Assembly (NCBI GenBank): GCA_025361585.1
Contig: JANYKK010000146.1
Coordinates: forward strand, 1 to 40,722
DNA: 40,722 bases
From: Methylobacter sp.
GTDB taxonomy: Bacteria > Pseudomonadota > Gammaproteobacteria > Methylococcales > Methylomonadaceae
Direction of reading: 5' to 3'
Part shown: piece after piece, positions 4,850 to 38,915 of the stretch
Position numbering within the stretch: position 1 is the first letter of the stretch
Layout: every line of letters starts with the position of its first letter
The notes under the pieces: model-generated
The model's database searches: none
The model's input: only the letters and a program-made list of their open reading frames with translations
What the model was told of the DNA's origin: nothing
Position numbers and translations under genes: made by a program

Positions 4850-5392
4850 TCAGTAGTTCTGAGAATTAAGTCGCTTCGCGATCTCGTGGAAGGTAGCGGT
4901 ATCGGATTCAGTCATATCGAATGGATCCGAATTGCGAAGAACGAATGCCTCTAGTTCCGCGACACGGGCCTCCAGACTTCGCGACACGGGCCTAGTGGCC
5001 GCCTCAATGCCCGCCGGGTAGGGATCTAACGATCCGACAACGCATTTGAAGTCCTCGATTATCCAGCGCACCATTGAGAAGCGCTGCATGGTTCCTCCAG
5101 TGGGCCGGTACGCCTGACGGTCCAGGCGCTCAATTTCAGCGAGGAGAAGAGCGGCGGCCTTGACGAGGTTGCGGCGGTCGTCCTTGGAGGGCTTCCAGTG
5201 CTCCGGCTCCCAAGGCCAGATTTCAGGAGGTTCATCCTCGGGGTGAGGCTCCCCCACAGCGGCGTAGCATGCGGCAGCGAGGGCAAGATCTCCTGATGAG
5301 TGCCTATCATCGTGCTCGGCGGTCCAGCCCTCGGCTTTGATTTGGCGCTGGCGCTCGGTCAGAACGTCCTGTGCGGCTTTGGTGAGATCCAT
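4850..5392 (-). CDS. Conserved phage hypothetical protein (TERQRQIKAEGWTAEHDDRHSSGDLALAAACYA family)
   Basis: Characteristic conserved N-terminal phage motif; ATG at 5392 with GGAGAGCAC upstream. Confidence 0.75.
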   Translation of the reverse strand: MDLTKAAQDVLTERQRQIKAEGWTAEHDDRHSSGDLALAAACYAAVGEPHPEDEPPEIWPWEPEHWKPSKDDRRNLVKAAALLLAEIERLDRQAYRPTGGTMQRFSMVRWIIEDFKCVVGSLDPYPAGIEAATRPVSRSLEARVAELEAFVLRNSDPFDMTESDTATFHEIAKRLNSQNY

Positions 5393-5427
5393 GTGCTCTC
5401 CTGGGCGGTGGGGTGTGGTTTTGGGCA

Positions 5428-5685
5428 TCAGCGTTTTGGGACGGTGGACGATCCGCCGCACTGTCCCATGGCGGATTCAAAGGCGATGATTGCGTCTTCC
5501 GGGGTGCTTCCGAATCCAGCGACACCCGAGGCAAGGTCATCACCCCAGAGCAGGCACCACTGGTTCCCATCGCGCTTTGGCTTCAATCCCAGCACAACAG
5601 CCCAGTGATCGCGCTTTTCGGCGGCAGCATGATCTAAGCAGGCTGTGGCATACATTTCCTGCTGAACATGGAACGGGACTTCCAT
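5428..5685 (-). CDS. Hypothetical protein
   Basis: 85-aa ORF in operon context. Confidence 0.55.
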   Translation of the reverse strand: MEVPFHVQQEMYATACLDHAAAEKRDHWAVVLGLKPKRDGNQWCLLWGDDLASGVAGFGSTPEDAIIAFESAMGQCGGSSTVPKR

Positions 5686-29219: not shown

Positions 29220-29633
29220 GTGGGTTTAGACATCGCAGGCATCGGAGCAGTCGCTGACTTAGCAAAGGACCTTGTCAACAGATTCTTCCCTAGCAAAACT
29301 GAGGAAGAGAAAGCGAATATGTCGTTGATCCTTGCTACTATGCAGAACCAGATGGCCATGAACCAGGGCCAGATGGACATTGATAAGACTGAAGCTGCCA
29401 GCCCCAGTCTCTTTGTCAGTGGATGGAGGCCGATGGTAGGCTGGGTCTGCGGTTCGGCCTGCGCCTGGAATTGGGTGGGCCTGCCCATCGCGAAGTTTGG
29501 CCTTGCGATTTTCGGCAAAGTTCTAGCGGTAGCACCCGCAGACTTGACGCAGATGCTACCGCTTTTACTTGGTCTTCTTGGAATGGGCGCCTTGCGAACT
29601 TATGAAAAGACGCAGGGTGTTGCTAGGACGTGA
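29220..29633 (+). CDS. Holin (3-TM-like family)
   Basis: GTG start; FVSGWRPMVGWVCGSACAWNWVGLPI...LPLLLGLLGMGALRTYEK typical of 3TM phage holins. Confidence 0.75.
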   Translation: MGLDIAGIGAVADLAKDLVNRFFPSKTEEEKANMSLILATMQNQMAMNQGQMDIDKTEAASPSLFVSGWRPMVGWVCGSACAWNWVGLPIAKFGLAIFGKVLAVAPADLTQMLPLLLGLLGMGALRTYEKTQGVART

Positions 29634-30018
29634 TTTCTGCCAAGGACTCCAGTTCTTGCATGTAAACCTGGAGTCGGTCAATATCCATCGTGCCTTCCCA
29701 TGTAGCTGCCACTTTCATGATCCGGGCCTCTAGGGGCCCGAGATCATTTACAAGGCAGAAACGGTCGATGGCGCCGAAGTCCCTAACAATAGGCGGCGGT
29801 GTGATACGATCTGCTTCATAGAACTCACGAATCTTGAGCAGGTAGTGAAGGGCCTTTCTGACATCCTGGAGGCCATTCTTCTTTTTCCAGCGGTAGACGT
29901 ATTTCGTGAGATTCCCCTCCAGGTAGCGCCCATCCAGGCAGTCGTTAACGAAGTCCCAGTGCTGATAGTCAGTCTGGTAATGGCGACCTCCTTCTTGCTC
30001 GTGATTAGCTGATTGCAT
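29623..30018 (-). CDS. DUF3310-family protein
   Basis: HYQTDYQHWDFVNDCLDGRYLEGNLTKYVYRWKKKNGLQDVRKALHYL. Confidence 0.8.
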   Translation of the reverse strand: MQSANHEQEGGRHYQTDYQHWDFVNDCLDGRYLEGNLTKYVYRWKKKNGLQDVRKALHYLLKIREFYEADRITPPPIVRDFGAIDRFCLVNDLGPLEARIMKVAATWEGTMDIDRLQVYMQELESLAEITS

Positions 30019-30538
30019 CGGTGAGTCTCCGCATAATAGCGCGGATGGCGTTAAAGACCATCCGCTCATGTTGATTCGTCCCCATTTCGTCGATATAGGA
30101 GCAGTACCGGTTATAAACATCGCGGATACTGTGGTTCCCTAGTTCGTATTCATTGATGCAGTAGATCATCCCATCCATACAGTCGGCGATTTTAAGGATG
30201 CGTAATTCATCTGGACTAAGATGGATTTCGAAGTCCATATCATGCTCGCCTAGAACTTCGTGTTCCATACGCTGAACCATCTCGGCCAGTTCCGGAAACT
30301 TCCGCTTAGTGGGGGAGCTTATATCTCCCGTGACCTGTTCCGCTAGATCATGGGCCAGCGCCGCCATGATGAGATCTACCGTTGGTTCCTCGGCAAGCAT
30401 CCATACGAACCACGCCACACCGAAACTGTGGTGCGCGATAGTATTGTCTTTGAGTGTATTCTTTGTGTGGTAGCGTTTGACCAGCCCGCCCTGCCGGATG
30501 AAGTTAATCTGTTTGGTCATGAATTCACGTTCTATCAT
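30005..30538 (-). CDS. HD-domain phosphohydrolase (YfbR-like)
   Basis: NTIAHHSFGVAWFVWML...AALAHDLAEQVTGDISSPTKR (H...HD); ATGA overlap with the ThyA-like gene. Confidence 0.8.
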   Translation of the reverse strand: MIEREFMTKQINFIRQGGLVKRYHTKNTLKDNTIAHHSFGVAWFVWMLAEEPTVDLIMAALAHDLAEQVTGDISSPTKRKFPELAEMVQRMEHEVLGEHDMDFEIHLSPDELRILKIADCMDGMIYCINEYELGNHSIRDVYNRYCSYIDEMGTNQHERMVFNAIRAIMRRLTDAIS

Positions 30539-31527
30539 GCGCGCCTCTCAATCCACTGAGTGCAGGCCAGCCGCCAGTCATCGGCTTCGATACGCGCGAC
30601 ATGGCTCATACCGTCACCAGCTTTAGATTTTCGTTCGTGCCATGCAGCGAACATTGGCACAGCCGTATCCTTGAAAAACCTATCCATGAACAGTGTAGCC
30701 TGCAAAGGTTCGTCAAGGAACGCACTCAGATTAGACATCCAACTACGGTGGTCTGAATTAACGATTGGCATGGGGGCGACTGTCAATTCGTTCGCCAAAT
30801 TGTAGTGATCATTGATCACACAATGGCTTGCCATGACTTCGCGCGCTTCCGTGGAGTTGAGCTCTGGCAAACTTGTGTAAAGGTGGAAGTTATTACTGAA
30901 TTGATAGTAATATCCAATACCGATGCCAAGAGCTGCTGCCATGAATTCCAACAGAAAACTCATGTGGACAGCATTCGCCCCGTAAGCTCCCCAGTAGATA
31001 TCATTGCTTCGGTTGCACACCGTCATGTCTAGATGGTCTTCGCGAATACGGAAATAGATATGGGTATTGCAAGGAACATCTTTACTAAAGCTACCCAAAT
31101 CATTGATCCCATCCCACATCGCGATAACCACCCGACGATCAGCAGGATTGGCCTTCAGCATTTCGACAGCACGCCAAATCTGATCAATGCCGAAGTAGTG
31201 CCGCCATCGGTTTCCGTAGGCGCCGTTCACACTTTTGCCATCATCGCTGTATTCCAAGAATCTCTTGTTGAAGTATGCAGGCCAGGCAACATCACTACGA
31301 CCTGCCAGCATCCACATGGCCTCCATGAAGTGGAAGAATGGATTGGCGTCACGCAGGGGATTGAATAGCACACGTTCTTCAGACTTGGCATACATCGTCA
31401 TCACTGGGCATGGGGAAACAAGAACCGGCCCATTTCGGCTTTCTTCGATGGTGCCATGCTCGTTCAAATAACGAAGGCCGTGAGCCAGCGCATGATTGAC
31501 ATTCAGTGCTGGGATAACATACATCAC
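30535..31527 (-). CDS. Thymidylate synthase / deoxypyrimidine hydroxymethylase family protein
   Basis: NGAYGNRWRHYFGIDQI, DRRVVIAMW, VPCNTHIYFRI (catalytic Cys), CNRSNDIYWGAYGANAVHMSFL, NNFHLY. Confidence 0.85.
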   Translation of the reverse strand: MMYVIPALNVNHALAHGLRYLNEHGTIEESRNGPVLVSPCPVMTMYAKSEERVLFNPLRDANPFFHFMEAMWMLAGRSDVAWPAYFNKRFLEYSDDGKSVNGAYGNRWRHYFGIDQIWRAVEMLKANPADRRVVIAMWDGINDLGSFSKDVPCNTHIYFRIREDHLDMTVCNRSNDIYWGAYGANAVHMSFLLEFMAAALGIGIGYYYQFSNNFHLYTSLPELNSTEAREVMASHCVINDHYNLANELTVAPMPIVNSDHRSWMSNLSAFLDEPLQATLFMDRFFKDTAVPMFAAWHERKSKAGDGMSHVARIEADDWRLACTQWIERRA

Positions 31528-32366
31528 AGTCCTCCAGGGTATAGTGAGCGAGGCTTGCCTTCGCCTAGACGAGTTCGCTCATACTTATCGAATTCGCATA
31601 AGCAGTTCTGCAAATCCTGTGCATGGAGTTCAGGCCATCCAACAGAATCTGTAAGAGGATCGATATGCGTCTTGAGTTCCAGCAGTGTTGGGTGCCAAGT
31701 GGCACCGGGCCAAGTGGCATCAACGGGACGGCTGGCGACCCTGTTAAGCCCCCGACGACTACCGGGGCCACTAGCGGCCCAGTCCCACCAATCAGGCGCC
31801 TTAAAGAGCTCGCCAGCGTATTTCGTATCAGCAATCACCTGCCCCGTCATGAAGCTTCCCATACCGTTGAACTTGCTCAAGCGATCGAAGAAGCTCTGGA
31901 GAGTGTCACCCTGGCGTGGGCGCAGCTTATCACAGTTCGCCCACAAGGGATTCAGGACATACTGCACGAGATAGTCGACCTTGTCCATGGAGTGGCCGTT
32001 AGTGGAAACGATGTAGGCACCGCTGAATGCCTTCTTCCCTTCGTCCCGTTGCCGGTGCATGGCCTCGGTGAACCATACGGAATTCCAGGGCACCGGGTAG
32101 CCGATACGGGCCAGTGATTCAGGCCAGTTGACGAGTCGTGCCACCACCATCGCGAACCACAGGTCAGGATCGTCAGCATTCGGCTTGCGCCAATTCTCAG
32201 TGATCCACTGAGTTACTGAATCTAATTCTCGATAGATATTACAGAATCGGTAGCTGCCCAGAATCTTGTCGCGAGTCCAGGGCTTCTGGCCACCAGCGAT
32301 CTTAGCTTGGTAGATTAAGTGACGTTCTTTAATGAATGCCCAAAGTTCAGCGACTCGCAGCGTCAT
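31524..32366 (-). CDS. Putative DNA base hypermodification protein (5-hmdU kinase helical / aGPT-Pplase-like)
   Basis: LWAFIKERHLIYQAKIAGGQKPWTRDKILGSYRFCNIYRELDSVTQWITENWR; HhH-like SKFNGMGSFMTGQVIADTKY; internal ATG with AAGAAGG RBS. Confidence 0.7.
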   Translation of the reverse strand: MTLRVAELWAFIKERHLIYQAKIAGGQKPWTRDKILGSYRFCNIYRELDSVTQWITENWRKPNADDPDLWFAMVVARLVNWPESLARIGYPVPWNSVWFTEAMHRQRDEGKKAFSGAYIVSTNGHSMDKVDYLVQYVLNPLWANCDKLRPRQGDTLQSFFDRLSKFNGMGSFMTGQVIADTKYAGELFKAPDWWDWAASGPGSRRGLNRVASRPVDATWPGATWHPTLLELKTHIDPLTDSVGWPELHAQDLQNCLCEFDKYERTRLGEGKPRSLYPGGL

Positions 32367-33120
32367 TGTATGCCTTCTTCCACTGGACCTGCACATCGAG
32401 GCGAGTGGCGCCTCCCCACGCGACCTTGGTGGTCTTTTCAACGAGTTTCACGTATTTGGGATGGACTTCTGCCAGTTTGCGAGCATCAGCACTTTGCACT
32501 TCAAGAGAACGTGTAATGGAACATCCACCTGGGGCGTTGGAAGAACCTTGATCTTGAACCCAGTGAGCAAGAACACAATTCGCTAGCCCAAGTTCAAGAA
32601 GTTGAAGTGTGGCATCAAAATCACACATGTTTCCGCCACGCTTAAAATCAATCTTGTGTTTCCGGCAAATCGCGACATCGTAAGCCAGGATGCGCATCAT
32701 GCGGGTGCAGAAAGTGAAGGGCTCGGTGACTCGGTTGGCCCCTTCTCTCCCCATTACGCCGACATGGGAGTATCGCAGAAGTTGGAAACTGATCGTAGTG
32801 AACATGTCAATCTTTTCGAGGTCTGATGCCGGCTCGAACTTCGTAAGATCATCCATGCGCCGTTTGTAGAACCGTAGGTCGTCATCTAGCATACAGATCT
32901 GGGGCCCAAATCGTTTGTGATCATGCTTATCGACAATGAACTGGCGCTTGGCTGCGATTCCACGAACTTCCGATGGACAGACTAGTATGGGTTGAGCGCC
33001 AAACTTCGAAGCTTCCTCCTCGTATACGACAAGAACTGCCTTCTTGCGAAGCGGCTCCGGCAGGTTATTCAGGGTGACCTGTTTTCCTACTCTCCCGTAG
33101 GTGGGGATGTAAATGATCAC
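32347..33120 (-). CDS. GT-A fold glycosyltransferase-like protein
   Basis: IIYIPTYGRVGKQVTLNNLPEPLRKKAVLVVYEEE...PSEVRGIAAKRQFIVDK...ICMLDDDLRFYKR (DxD-like); GTG start at 33120 with GGAGGG RBS. Confidence 0.7.
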   Translation of the reverse strand: MIIYIPTYGRVGKQVTLNNLPEPLRKKAVLVVYEEEASKFGAQPILVCPSEVRGIAAKRQFIVDKHDHKRFGPQICMLDDDLRFYKRRMDDLTKFEPASDLEKIDMFTTISFQLLRYSHVGVMGREGANRVTEPFTFCTRMMRILAYDVAICRKHKIDFKRGGNMCDFDATLQLLELGLANCVLAHWVQDQGSSNAPGGCSITRSLEVQSADARKLAEVHPKYVKLVEKTTKVAWGGATRLDVQVQWKKAYNDAASR

Positions 33121-35782: not shown

Positions 35783-36449
35783 CGTTATCCTTTCTAAAAT
35801 GGCACCATCGGCAAGCGTAGCTCGGCTTTGCGGCGAACATCGTATCATTGAGCATAGGGCGCACGCGCTCGCCCCACTCCATCTTTAGAAACTTGAGATC
35901 TTCACGCGTGAACGAAGTTGAAGTGAAAGTGCCGTGATCAAGATACCAGATCTCACCTTTCAGGACATCTTCATCAGGAAACTTCACGAAGCCGCCCAGC
36001 CCATAGAGTCCAAGCTGAGTCTGGTGCTCTTCGCGCACTTTACCAGTTTTGTGATCTACGATAACTCGTGGTTCGCCCCTTGGCTTGAAAATAAGATCCG
36101 TTTTAATGCGGCACCATGCGTCCTTCGACATCCAGCCAGTGGGCTCCCAATCTACTGTGAAGGCCCACTCTTGTTCTGCGATGGGCTTAGAAATTCGTGC
36201 CAGCTTCAGCTCCGCCTCGAACTCCTTGAGTTCAGGCGGCAGTTGACTCGTGCCACCCTTGCTTAGTGGGAGGGGCTTGGTGTTGACGAAGTCTTCGGCC
36301 ATCTTGTGGATAGCCGTTCCTCGATCCATAGCGGCGGAGCCTGGTTCGGACAGCTTATCCACGAATTTATACTTCGCCTTTGCCGGGCAGTCATCATAGC
36401 ATTTCCAGCGGGAGTAAGACCATTGAGTGATCAAGTTATCTCCTAACAA
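35763..36449 (-). CDS. PD-(D/E)XK (Cas4/RecB-like) exonuclease
   Basis: WSYSRWKCYDDCPAKAKYKFV, RGTAIHKMAEDFV, VIVDHKTGK, YACRWCHFRKDNGGPC. Confidence 0.88.
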   Translation of the reverse strand: MLGDNLITQWSYSRWKCYDDCPAKAKYKFVDKLSEPGSAAMDRGTAIHKMAEDFVNTKPLPLSKGGTSQLPPELKEFEAELKLARISKPIAEQEWAFTVDWEPTGWMSKDAWCRIKTDLIFKPRGEPRVIVDHKTGKVREEHQTQLGLYGLGGFVKFPDEDVLKGEIWYLDHGTFTSTSFTREDLKFLKMEWGERVRPMLNDTMFAAKPSYACRWCHFRKDNGGPCKF

Positions 36450-37044
36450 CTACGATTGTCATGTCATCAGCCGCACCGCCATGTCGCGCCGCCTGCTGAA
36501 GTAGAAGAGTCGGAATATCGCTGAAGTGCTGTGCCTCTCGCTGCGCCTTCTGTAAAGATAGGCGGTCGAATGTCGTCCACGCACCGTCGGTGGCGAAAAT
36601 CAACCAATCTTCTGACTGAAGTCTTGTGTGGATGGGTGCAGCTATGTGAACTCCTGACCCAAGGCGCTTCTTGGTATCAACCCCAACGGAATTCAAGTAA
36701 AAATCGGCGCTATTCACCTTGTAACAGCGAGAGTCGCCTACTTGGATCCCGTAAACTCCCTCACCTATTACTGTGGCGGCGACCAGCGTGGTTTCTTTGC
36801 CACCTTCAAGATAGGCATCCAGTGATGCAGCGTAACATTCCCATGTATGAAATAGTTTTAGATCATTAGCACAAGTATTCCGCACCATCTTTGCTAGATA
36901 GGCGAGTGCCCGTGTAGCAACCCCGAAAGCACGCCCAGAGCCATCAGCAACAGCCACTATGAAGTGTGGATCGCGGATAATAGTGAAGGCATCCTCATTG
37001 CGTTCTCCGCTAGCCATTTTCTTTGTCGCGCCGTAGACTTCCAT
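36436..37044 (-). CDS. PP2C-family protein phosphatase
   Basis: GERNEDAF, VADGSGRAFG, GVYGIQVGDSR, LIFATDGAW, ADDMTIVVV match PP2C motif order. Confidence 0.82.
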   Translation of the reverse strand: MEVYGATKKMASGERNEDAFTIIRDPHFIVAVADGSGRAFGVATRALAYLAKMVRNTCANDLKLFHTWECYAASLDAYLEGGKETTLVAATVIGEGVYGIQVGDSRCYKVNSADFYLNSVGVDTKKRLGSGVHIAAPIHTRLQSEDWLIFATDGAWTTFDRLSLQKAQREAQHFSDIPTLLLQQAARHGGAADDMTIVVVRR

Positions 37045-37046
37045 GG

Positions 37047-38915
37047 CTACTTCTTGTAGGCTTTGAGGACGCCCCAGTTCTTTCCGCTCTTACCATCGGA
37101 CAGTAGGGGGACATCTAGCGGCACAGATTCCATAGCAGCACGAAGGATCTCCATCTCTTCTGCAACGTGCTCCTTGGGGCAACTAATGTTGATTTCATCG
37201 TGGACAGTAATGAGGAATCGCCCGTGTTTCTTCGTTCGATTGTAGTTGATGAGAGCCTGTTTCGTGACATCTGCCGCGCTACCTTGAATTAAGTAGTTCA
37301 GCAGTTTGTATTCGAAGTGGACCATCTTACCACCGATAAGCATGGGCGGCTCGGTGAAGTAAGCTCGTCCACCCCAGGTGCAAATGAAGTCTCCCGTGGA
37401 GCCGACTTGCTTCACCAACCTTTCTAGCGCAGCTAAGCCGGGAATGGCTTTTCGCTGAGCGTTCTTGACCGTCCTGGCCTCTTCCACAGTAGCGTGGATG
37501 CCGATCGCCAGTTTGGCCAGCCCCATACCATAGATCATACCGAAGTTCAGAATCTTAACTGCGCGGCGCTCTAGTTCCAGCCCACAGATACGCTTAATCT
37601 CGGACTGGACGAAAGTATGAACATCAAGCGTCGCGTCCGCATTATAGGCAGCACATAGAGAAGCATCCTCAAAGTGCGCCAGGATTCTAAGTTCTTGCTG
37701 GTTGTAATCACGATGCAGCAGGACCTCACCTTTATCAGGAAGGATATACCGCCGCATATTCGGTAACTCCGGCACACCGAGAAATTCAGGATGCACGTAT
37801 CCGTCATCCTTACCTTCAAATGATTTAGGGATATTCTGGAAATTCGGATTAGAGGACATGCGGCCAGTTCTCGCACCCTTGCTATCCTTGCCGCTACCCA
37901 TCTGGCGAACTTGGTTCCAGTTGGTGAAAATCCGCCCATTGTTCTTCTCCGCCATAGCCAACCAAGGACGAATAAAGGTGGACAAACAAGTTCCAAGTCG
38001 GTTTCGGTAGCCAAGCGCCTGGGCGACAGATTGATCATCAAACATGTCGGGTGTGAGGTTAGTCTTAGAAACACTGTCGCGACCCTTGGGAGTCTGCGCA
38101 AAGTTCTTCACCACACCACTTTCTTTGAGCGCACGAGCGAGTTCTGGATCTGAGTCAATGTTGAGTTCAGAGACTCCGAGTCGTTCGCGTAAGTAAGCAT
38201 CGCATTTAGCACCCGCTTCCTCATATCGCTTGAGATCCAGCCGGAGTTCCTTAAGATCAGCGCAAACGCCTCTTCGTTCGTTCGCCATAAGTAGCGGAAG
38301 TAACTCCCGTTCCCGGTCGTATGCCGGGATCATTTTGCGCTCATCTATTTCCGCCCATAACCTATCGAAGAGCAGACGCGTTCGCACAACATCACCAATG
38401 GCGTATTCGCCCACCAATTTTCCAGGAGCTAGCGAGATCCACGCGCCCCAAGTCTTTTCTGTCAACTTGGTATCGGCAGGGAGCAGGTGCCTATTGGCGA
38501 AAATGTAGTCCTTGACTGCGTCTCGCTCAATAGGCGGCATTCCCAATAGGGCTTCGGCCGCAGGCTTCAACGCTAGGGTGGCGGCGTGGGGATCCCTCAG
38601 AAATAGCAGGAACAGCGTATCGTGAACGCGTTCCCAGGCAATTTCACCACAGCCCATGTGAGTTTGCGCGACATCCACATCAAACTTCGCGTTGTGGAAA
38701 AGTAGTGGAGCCTCGCCCTGCCACGCAGTAAGAAGAATTTCCCGTGCCTCAGCCTCCGTGCAGTTATTACCCTCTGGGTGACCGAAAGCATAGTATCGGG
38801 CCTTCTTTGCAGTTGGGGCCAGAATACTGAAGCCCACAGGTTTTGGAGGATACGCAGGTCTCGCTTCAATGGCCTCTGTTTCAAAGTCAATTGTTATTGG
38901 CTTGGGAATCTTCAC
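37047..38915 (-). CDS. DNA polymerase family A
   Basis: ITIDFET exonuclease motif; HRDYNQQELRILAHFE, RRAVKILNFGMIYGMG, ITVHDEINISCP polymerase motifs A/B/C. Confidence 0.95.
   Translation of the reverse strand: MKIPKPITIDFETEAIEARPAYPPKPVGFSILAPTAKKARYYAFGHPEGNNCTEAEAREILLTAWQGEAPLLFHNAKFDVDVAQTHMGCGEIAWERVHDTLFLLFLRDPHAATLALKPAAEALLGMPPIERDAVKDYIFANRHLLPADTKLTEKTWGAWISLAPGKLVGEYAIGDVVRTRLLFDRLWAEIDERKMIPAYDRERELLPLLMANERRGVCADLKELRLDLKRYEEAGAKCDAYLRERLGVSELNIDSDPELARALKESGVVKNFAQTPKGRDSVSKTNLTPDMFDDQSVAQALGYRNRLGTCLSTFIRPWLAMAEKNNGRIFTNWNQVRQMGSGKDSKGARTGRMSSNPNFQNIPKSFEGKDDGYVHPEFLGVPELPNMRRYILPDKGEVLLHRDYNQQELRILAHFEDASLCAAYNADATLDVHTFVQSEIKRICGLELERRAVKILNFGMIYGMGLAKLAIGIHATVEEARTVKNAQRKAIPGLAALERLVKQVGSTGDFICTWGGRAYFTEPPMLIGGKMVHFEYKLLNYLIQGSAADVTKQALINYNRTKKHGRFLITVHDEINISCPKEHVAEEMEILRAAMESVPLDVPLLSDGKSGKNWGVLKAYKK

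Follow-up and report, generated by a model that had tools for sequence, protein, structure and literature searches.

A phage operon predicted to make glycosylated 5-hydroxymethyluracil, and the exchangeable enzyme slot of its relatives

Which modified base, if any, would be made by five overlapping genes of a small phage found in a Methylobacter assembly? The window, that is the whole stretch of DNA analysed (40,722 nt), is one entire contig, which was binned with a 3.28-Mb MAG. It is bounded by a 141-bp direct terminal repeat and is therefore a complete circular phage contig. The original prediction had labelled it a P22-like podovirus, in agreement with which a P22-type coat protein and a TerL 60% identical to that of EBPR podovirus 1 were present. 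It had also described a DNA base hypermodification operon of five overlapping minus-strand genes. All five ORFs were open on the minus strand, in the order glycosyltransferase, HMUDK_hel protein (HEL), ThyA-family enzyme, HD phosphohydrolase and DUF3310 protein, and successive genes overlapped by 20, 4, 4 and 14 bases. Each matched the profile of the family named for it (TAGT, HMUDK_hel, ThyA, YfbR-like HD and DUF3310). The operon probably makes glycosylated 5-hydroxymethyluracil in the phage DNA.

The first gene (32347..33120, minus strand) had been called a GT-A-like glycosyltransferase, and this call held. Its product matched the profile of the TET-associated glycosyltransferases (TAGT), PF20691, with 85.8 bits against a curated cut-off of 27.5 (E 4.9e-24), and phrog_842 with an E-value of 2.6e-41. 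The AlphaFold model (pLDDT 92.9) matched GT-A folds in the PDB (E 6.6e-6), and an acidic DDD motif (D79-D80-D81) was invariant in 20 aligned sequences. The fold search was used in place of a PDB sequence search with the glycosyltransferase profile, which gave nothing meaningful. An alignment-based scan for relatives likewise took over from an IMG/VR scan with the single protein, in which no relative was confirmed. TAGT is predicted to place a sugar on 5-hydroxymethyl-dU in DNA, and the hydroxymethyl group would come from the ThyA protein in place of a TET/JBP oxygenase; a search with PF12851 (TET/JBP oxygenase) gave no match in the assembly and none in the controls either. In T6-like phages TAGT is thought to act on a base that is glucosylated already, to which it attaches a second sugar (PMC13390438), so that a bare hydroxymethyl group is not always the TAGT acceptor.

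The T-even TAGT, or beta-glucosyl-HMC-alpha-glucosyltransferase, shares its family with the window protein (phrog_842, PF20691) at about 26% identity, but its acceptor is glucosylated hydroxymethylcytosine and it is paired with a dCMP hydroxymethylase. A T4-like glycosylated 5-hydroxymethylcytosine, with the ThyA enzyme acting on dCMP and TAGT on hydroxymethylcytosine, was weighed as the product. It is suggested by the work of the T-even TAGT/phrog_842 proteins in glucosyl-hydroxymethylcytosine synthesis, and also by the closest solved structure to the ThyA protein (30535..31527, minus strand; PF00303 1.4e-20, phrog_5131 7e-114), which was a cytosine enzyme, the CMP hydroxymethylase MilA (1.1e-36, against 1e-23 for thymidylate synthase). 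The pyrimidine-reading residue argues against it. The uracil-reading Asn at the position of E. coli N177 was kept in 111 of 111 cassette ThyA enzymes, whereas T4 gp42 and MilA have no Asn at the aligned position; Asn-to-Asp changes there switched specificity to dCMP (PMC8670742). A T4-type dCMP enzyme with Asp at this position was thus rejected, and the Asn points to uracil, not cytosine. With the core, HD and DUF3310 included, also common to the thymidine pathway of Pseudomonas phage M6, a hydroxymethylcytosine product is quite improbable.

The family names and the record annotations as 'thymidylate synthase' would also suit an operon that serves the nucleotide pool only. The ThyA protein would then be a thymidylate synthase, HD and DUF3310 would tune the pools, and the glycosyltransferase, from a fold class with many acceptors, would act elsewhere, on the host surface or on a protein. 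The window enzyme has C153, N185 and a PCN motif, and the catalytic Cys was present in 111/111 cassette enzymes. The C-terminal APVAI is absent from it, however, and the P-V-A-V/I ending of thymidylate synthase was found in none of the 111. Among the solved-structure relatives, hydroxymethylases outranked every thymidylate synthase, and a plain thymidylate synthase identity was rejected. Among 71 non-redundant TAGT loci, moreover, TAGT was accompanied by HEL in 65 and by ThyA in 68, and it strictly alternated with a DNA-base kinase. This makes a pool function highly improbable. The PCN motif is common to the PhiW-14 dUMP hydroxymethylase, where E. coli has PCH, and the window enzyme was 44-46% identical to the M6-type enzymes. 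Judged by sequence, the protein is a predicted dUMP-type hydroxymethylase, consistent with the hydroxymethyl-pyrimidine maker proposed originally, for which the Asn, the proximity of MilA and the lost C-terminal motif all speak.

The HD phosphohydrolase (30005..30538, minus strand) matched PF12917 (2.3e-18) and phrog_7076 dATP triphosphohydrolase (1.9e-17). Its best solved relative was DatZ (9.8e-6), with YfbR at 0.01, and it is predicted to clear competing dTMP or dTTP. PhiW-14 infection was reported to yield hydroxymethyl-dUTP and a dTTPase (PMC5977210), which matches the pairing of ThyA and HD seen here. The DUF3310 protein (29623..30018, minus strand; PF11753 1.2e-7) has a domain that also occurs in the T7 gp1.7 nucleotide kinase (4.5e-23), and it is a candidate helper or enzyme in phosphorylation of the modified nucleotide; in L072 and L150 it is fused to HD. 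A family A DNA polymerase, PolA (37047..38915, minus strand; PF00476 8.9e-56), presumably incorporates the modified dUTP; M6 and many relatives likewise have a homologue close to their cassette.

HEL (31524..32366, minus strand) is a stand-alone protein of 280 aa that matched nearly the entire profile PF18723 (1e-41). Its AlphaFold model (pLDDT 96.1) matched, in BFVD, the HMUDK_hel proteins of PhiW-14, phiRSL1 and SP10, the last of which is a kinase. More distant likeness was seen to amino-acid:DNA transferases (ADDT) and DNA glycosylases, with weak PDB matches (E about 0.2) to the 5-PmdU glycinyltransferase 8z2m and the 8-oxoG glycosylase 3knt. These fold searches replaced a profile-based sequence search of the PDB, in which HEL gave spurious matches only (a pilin, whose single stretches scored E about 4.5). 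Neither this protein nor the glycosyltransferase was placed outside base-modification families by its structural matches. Of the earlier call '5-hmdU-kinase-helical/aGPT-Pplase-like', the HMUDK_hel membership stood, but within the old aGPT-Pplase grouping the protein does not fall in the ADDT branch. The absence of a P-loop kinase domain was confirmed, as a kinase profile built in this work found nothing in the window (E<=1). The 5-hmdU kinase profile PF18748 had no match in the window's assembly, a search without positive control; in whole records the profile matched 9 of 11 kinase-type contigs and none of 33 of the transferase type.

HEL was accordingly rejected as a kinase, since the P-loop is absent, and as an ADDT, since that is a separate gene. 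It is predicted to recognise 5-hmdU DNA or present the base, as partner of the enzyme in the neighbouring slot. It may instead be a transferase independent of the kinase, akin to its ADDT cousins, that supplies a missing catalytic step on 5-hmdU as first product; the glycosyltransferase would then add sugar to the result, which would be a base more complex than glycosyl-hmdU. Twenty-five HEL residues, many of them polar or charged, were at least 90% conserved in both slot classes and none was class-specific. This agrees with a HEL shared between slot enzymes and would also suit catalysis whatever the slot partner, as would the likeness to ADDT and to the solved glycinyltransferase. In kinase-type phages, however, a separate ADDT gene stands beside HEL (gp51 and gp55 in M6), and in SP10 HEL and the kinase are fused, which suggests that HEL assists the modifying enzyme. 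The complete relative MW202897 has TAGT, ThyA, HD and DUF3310 and lacks HEL, as do 3 other loci among 107. The TAGT branch therefore does not strictly need HEL, and a catalytic HEL is unlikely.

The core and its order were as in the thymidine hypermodification cluster of M6 (gp51-gp62), which makes 5-aminoethyl-dU. The M6 counterparts are gp55 for HEL (36%), gp58 for ThyA (about 45%), gp59 for HD, gp61 for DUF3310 and gp62 for PolA. M6 has in addition a kinase (gp54, PF18748), an ADDT (gp51, PF18724) and PLP-type and radical-SAM-type proteins, none of which was detected in the window; PF18724 gave no match in the window's assembly, whereas the M6 control matched at 2.3e-48. Where M6 has the kinase, the window has TAGT.

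This exchange recurred across about 100 related phage loci, which share the core of HEL, ThyA, HD and DUF3310 and a single exchangeable slot. The cassette is not a chance arrangement, because the identical gene set and order recur in dozens of phage contigs. Among 107 non-redundant ThyA loci, TAGT with HEL was found in 66, another putative transferase with HEL in 15, and the M6-type 5-hmdU kinase with HEL in 21. Kinase and transferase occurred together in 0 of 102 loci (Fisher p=5e-21), and TAGT alone upholds the exclusion (66 with TAGT and HEL against 21 with kinase and HEL, none with both). For HEL-seeded loci only, the counts were 33, 19 and 0, the last being kinase plus transferase (p=1.7e-13). 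ADDT was restricted to kinase loci (9/21, against 0/81 transferase loci), and the HEL tree of 99 loci required at least 26 slot exchanges. Two slot families that are neither TAGT nor kinase are tentatively taken as transferases; one, of about 320 aa, matched nothing significantly in Pfam, PHROG or the PDB, and the other had weak glycosyltransferase matches only, below the cut-off. The hypermodification reading of the operon is thus supported, with the refinement that the cassette is no one-off and represents the glycosyl side of a modular system spread among many phages. If that reading holds, HEL would be a shared 5-hmdU-DNA module and not a part of the kinase.

In the proposed pathway, the ThyA-family enzyme would convert dUMP to 5-hydroxymethyl-dUMP, which host kinases, possibly aided by the DUF3310 protein, would bring to the triphosphate, while the HD enzyme would strip competing dTMP and dTTP. 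The phage PolA would insert the modified nucleotide at T positions. HEL would then recognise or present the base in DNA, and TAGT would move a sugar from a nucleotide-sugar to its hydroxymethyl group. Every catalytic step is a prediction, as are the identity of the sugar, the extent of replacement and the exact role of HEL. The scanned ORFs yielded no gene for making sugar-nucleotides, so the donor must come from the host.

The cultured Brevibacterium phage LuckyBarnes (gp38-gp41) resembles the window in that ThyA, TAGT and HEL adjoin, and neither kinase nor ADDT was found in its whole genome. It differs in having two TAGTs and a diverged ThyA (26-27% identical, 517 aa), and no HD or DUF3310 was detected within the 16.8-kb stretch examined. 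The HTVC023P-type pelagiphages are, like the window phage, small podoviruses; in the parts of their description available here, their genes are reported to be auxiliary metabolic genes that act as partners in thymidine hypermodification in general, and those parts contain neither the glycosyl-hmdU proposal nor the slot exchange (PMC9599517). Base J of trypanosomatids, beta-D-glucosyl-hydroxymethyluracil, belongs to the same predicted product class, with a sugar on 5-hmU. Its precursor is thymine already in the DNA, on which JBP1/2 oxygenases and then a different glucosyltransferase act, whereas here the hydroxymethyl group would arise on the nucleotide. No chemical demonstration of a sugar-tagged hydroxymethyl thymine base in a phage was found in the literature searched. 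To our knowledge, no chemistry has been described for any member of the cassette family.

If the proposal is true, glycosyl-5-hmdU would be a common, chemically undescribed phage DNA base, reached by a route unlike that of base J and through new enzymes that add sugars at thymine positions of DNA. The prediction could be tested on dozens of phages known from metagenomes and on at least one in culture. HMUDK_hel, whose name refers to a kinase missing from most cassette relatives here, would gain a function. A broader view is put forward tentatively and may well not hold: that phages contain a large unrecognised glycosyl-5-hmdU branch, the counterpart of base J, in which HMUDK_hel is a universal base-presenting adaptor with repeatedly swapped kinases and glycosyltransferases of different families. 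The sugar-tagged base would act as armour against host nucleases, and its presence would bear on whose host restriction or modification-dependent systems can attack such phages.

ORF checking and profile searches confirmed the five overlapping, head-to-tail minus-strand genes at positions 29623-33120 and the families originally predicted for them. The contig is complete (40.7 kb, with a 141-bp direct repeat at its termini), and the P22 coat bore out its assignment to a P22-like-headed podovirus. The nearest phage by terminase was EBPR podovirus 1 (60%), and the replication genes comprised PolA, a VapE/DUF5906-type primase, an SNF2-type helicase, a PD-(D/E)XK exonuclease and an ATP ligase. A protein adjoining the DNA polymerase (36436-37044) gave weak matches to PP2C/SpoIIE phosphatases. 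About 100 amino acids of a short protein at 4850-5461 matched the C-terminal part of many otherwise dissimilar, uncharacterised phage families (phrog_6628, 9434, 9763 and others). The contig had been binned with a 3.28-Mb metagenome-assembled genome, and the presence of a phage contig with a 141-bp repeat inside a bacterial bin possibly reflects a host link or a binning error.

The ThyA-family protein (30535-31527) was aligned with E. coli ThyA, T4 gp42 and PhiW-14 gp230. It retains the catalytic cysteine (C153) and, in the nucleotide site, Arg-Ser and Asp. The pyrimidine-specificity residue, singled out for inspection in the original prediction, was asparagine (N185). It corresponds to N177 of E. 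coli, at which replacement of Asn by Asp shifts the substrate from dUMP to dCMP (PMC8670742). Cys, Asn and the remaining site residues were invariant in all 111 cassette relatives, none of which ended in the thymidylate-synthase C-terminal motif. Searched against solved structures, the family profile ranked the CMP hydroxymethylase MilA first (1.1e-36; best thymidylate synthase, 1.3e-23). The window protein and the PhiW-14 enzyme have PCN in common, the E. coli counterpart being PCH. Because of this ranking, the retained Cys and Asn, the absent C-terminal motif and PCN, the family is best read from sequence as a dUMP hydroxymethylase.

The glycosyltransferase (32347-33120) matched the TET-associated family (TAGT) at 85.8 bits (cut-off 27.5). 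Its model was of the GT-A type (pLDDT 92.9) with GT-A enzymes as PDB matches, and the DDD motif was invariant in 20 aligned sequences. It is likely a functional enzyme, for which we infer both sugar donor and acceptor. For the HD protein (30005-30538), the nearest solved relative was DatZ (9.8e-6), followed by YfbR (0.01); DatZ removes a competing dNTP in another base-replacing phage. As PhiW-14 infection reportedly abolishes dTTP via a dTTPase (PMC5977210), removal of dTMP/dTTP is a reasonable role for the HD protein. The DUF3310 domain (29623-30018) is also present in T7 gp1.7 (4.5e-23), which bears a nucleotide-kinase annotation; a kinase role here would be a guess. Both proteins fit nucleotide-pool work, and one-frame HD+DUF3310 fusions in two related loci (L072:8187-9425, L150:8972-10210) suggest that they act jointly.

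The protein at 31524-32366 was assigned to HMUDK_hel by Pfam (HEL hereafter) and, as predicted, contained no P-loop. In a structural comparison with viral proteins, its model (pLDDT 96) fell with HMUDK_hel members from phiRSL1 and PhiW-14, with that domain as embedded in the 637-aa 5-hmdU kinase of SP10, and with amino-acid:DNA transferases. A fold search of the PDB gave weak matches only, the best two being 8z2m, a 5-PmdU glycinyltransferase (E 0.2, probability 0.69), and 3knt, a DNA-bound 8-oxoguanine glycosylase (E 0.22, probability 0.95); these two hint at a base-recognising, DNA-glycosylase-like fold. The complete 40.4-kb phage MW202897.1 (loci L001 and L175) carries TAGT-ThyA-HD-DUF3310 without HEL and is a natural control for the role of HEL; because of this relative, HEL would be helpful, not essential, within the glycosyl branch. 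Some HEL relatives had no ThyA gene within 6 kb (L004, L009-L013, L015, L026, L040, L047 and L062, on contigs of up to 463 kb).

From sequence, fold and distribution we infer every step of the cassette chemistry. ThyA would convert dUMP to 5-hm-dUMP, which the host, perhaps with DUF3310, would convert to 5-hm-dUTP for incorporation by PolA, the HD protein meanwhile stripping dTMP/dTTP. In M6-type clusters, the closest characterised system, phosphorylation and then amino-acid transfer would follow, whereas in the window TAGT would glycosylate directly and HEL would recognise the base or present it. If kinase and glycosyltransferase compete for one hydroxyl, their mutual exclusion across the loci described below is as expected.

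IMG/VR loci were collected using HEL, ThyA and a TAGT alignment as seeds, and profiles built in this analysis served to annotate a stretch of about 4-13 kb per locus. The 107 non-redundant ThyA loci comprised 66 with TAGT and HEL (a count favoured by TAGT-seeded loci), 15 with HEL and either of two other families, tentatively transferases, 21 with HEL and an M6-type 5-hmdU kinase, four with TAGT without HEL, and one truncated. Kinase and transferase never occurred together in these 107 loci (Fisher p=5e-21). Because of the TAGT bias, the HEL-seeded subset, where seeding does not favour transferases, was counted apart: 33 loci had a transferase, 19 a kinase and none both (p=1.7e-13). Across whole records, the kinase profile PF18748 was absent from 33/33 of the transferase type and present in 9/11 of the kinase type, the Pfam profile thus missing 2/11 positives. 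The amino-acid:DNA transferase was confined to kinase loci (9/21 vs 0/81), and a SPASM radical-SAM protein to transferase cassettes (19/81 vs 0/21; e.g. L014:4077-5090, L065:5048-5974), hinting at further tailoring of base or sugar. A conserved family of about 320 aa occupied the TAGT position beside HEL (L006:2275-3273, L021:95-1054, L076:4998-5972, L063:4829-5980, L008:7591-8535); no significant Pfam, PHROG or PDB match was found, and it is possibly an undescribed DNA glycosyltransferase family.

In a quick HEL tree of 99 loci with many open forks, the type of enzyme beside HEL changed at least 26 times; of the changes involving the kinase, 10 or more were forced by well-supported branches. 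The 25 most conserved HEL residues were identical across kinase and transferase classes, with no class-specific residues. Given these counts, changes and class-independent conservation, the core has otherwise stayed constant while the activating enzyme was swapped again and again, and HEL, though named after the kinase, is not kinase-specific. Finding such genes together is not entirely without precedent, since HTVC023P-type pelagiphages are reported to combine thymidylate synthase and aG/PT-PPlase1 with a deoxynucleotidase and a putative glucosyltransferase (PMC9599517). In the cultured Brevibacterium phage LuckyBarnes, ThyA, two TAGTs and HEL were present and no kinase was found; the glycosyl-branch question is therefore directly testable.
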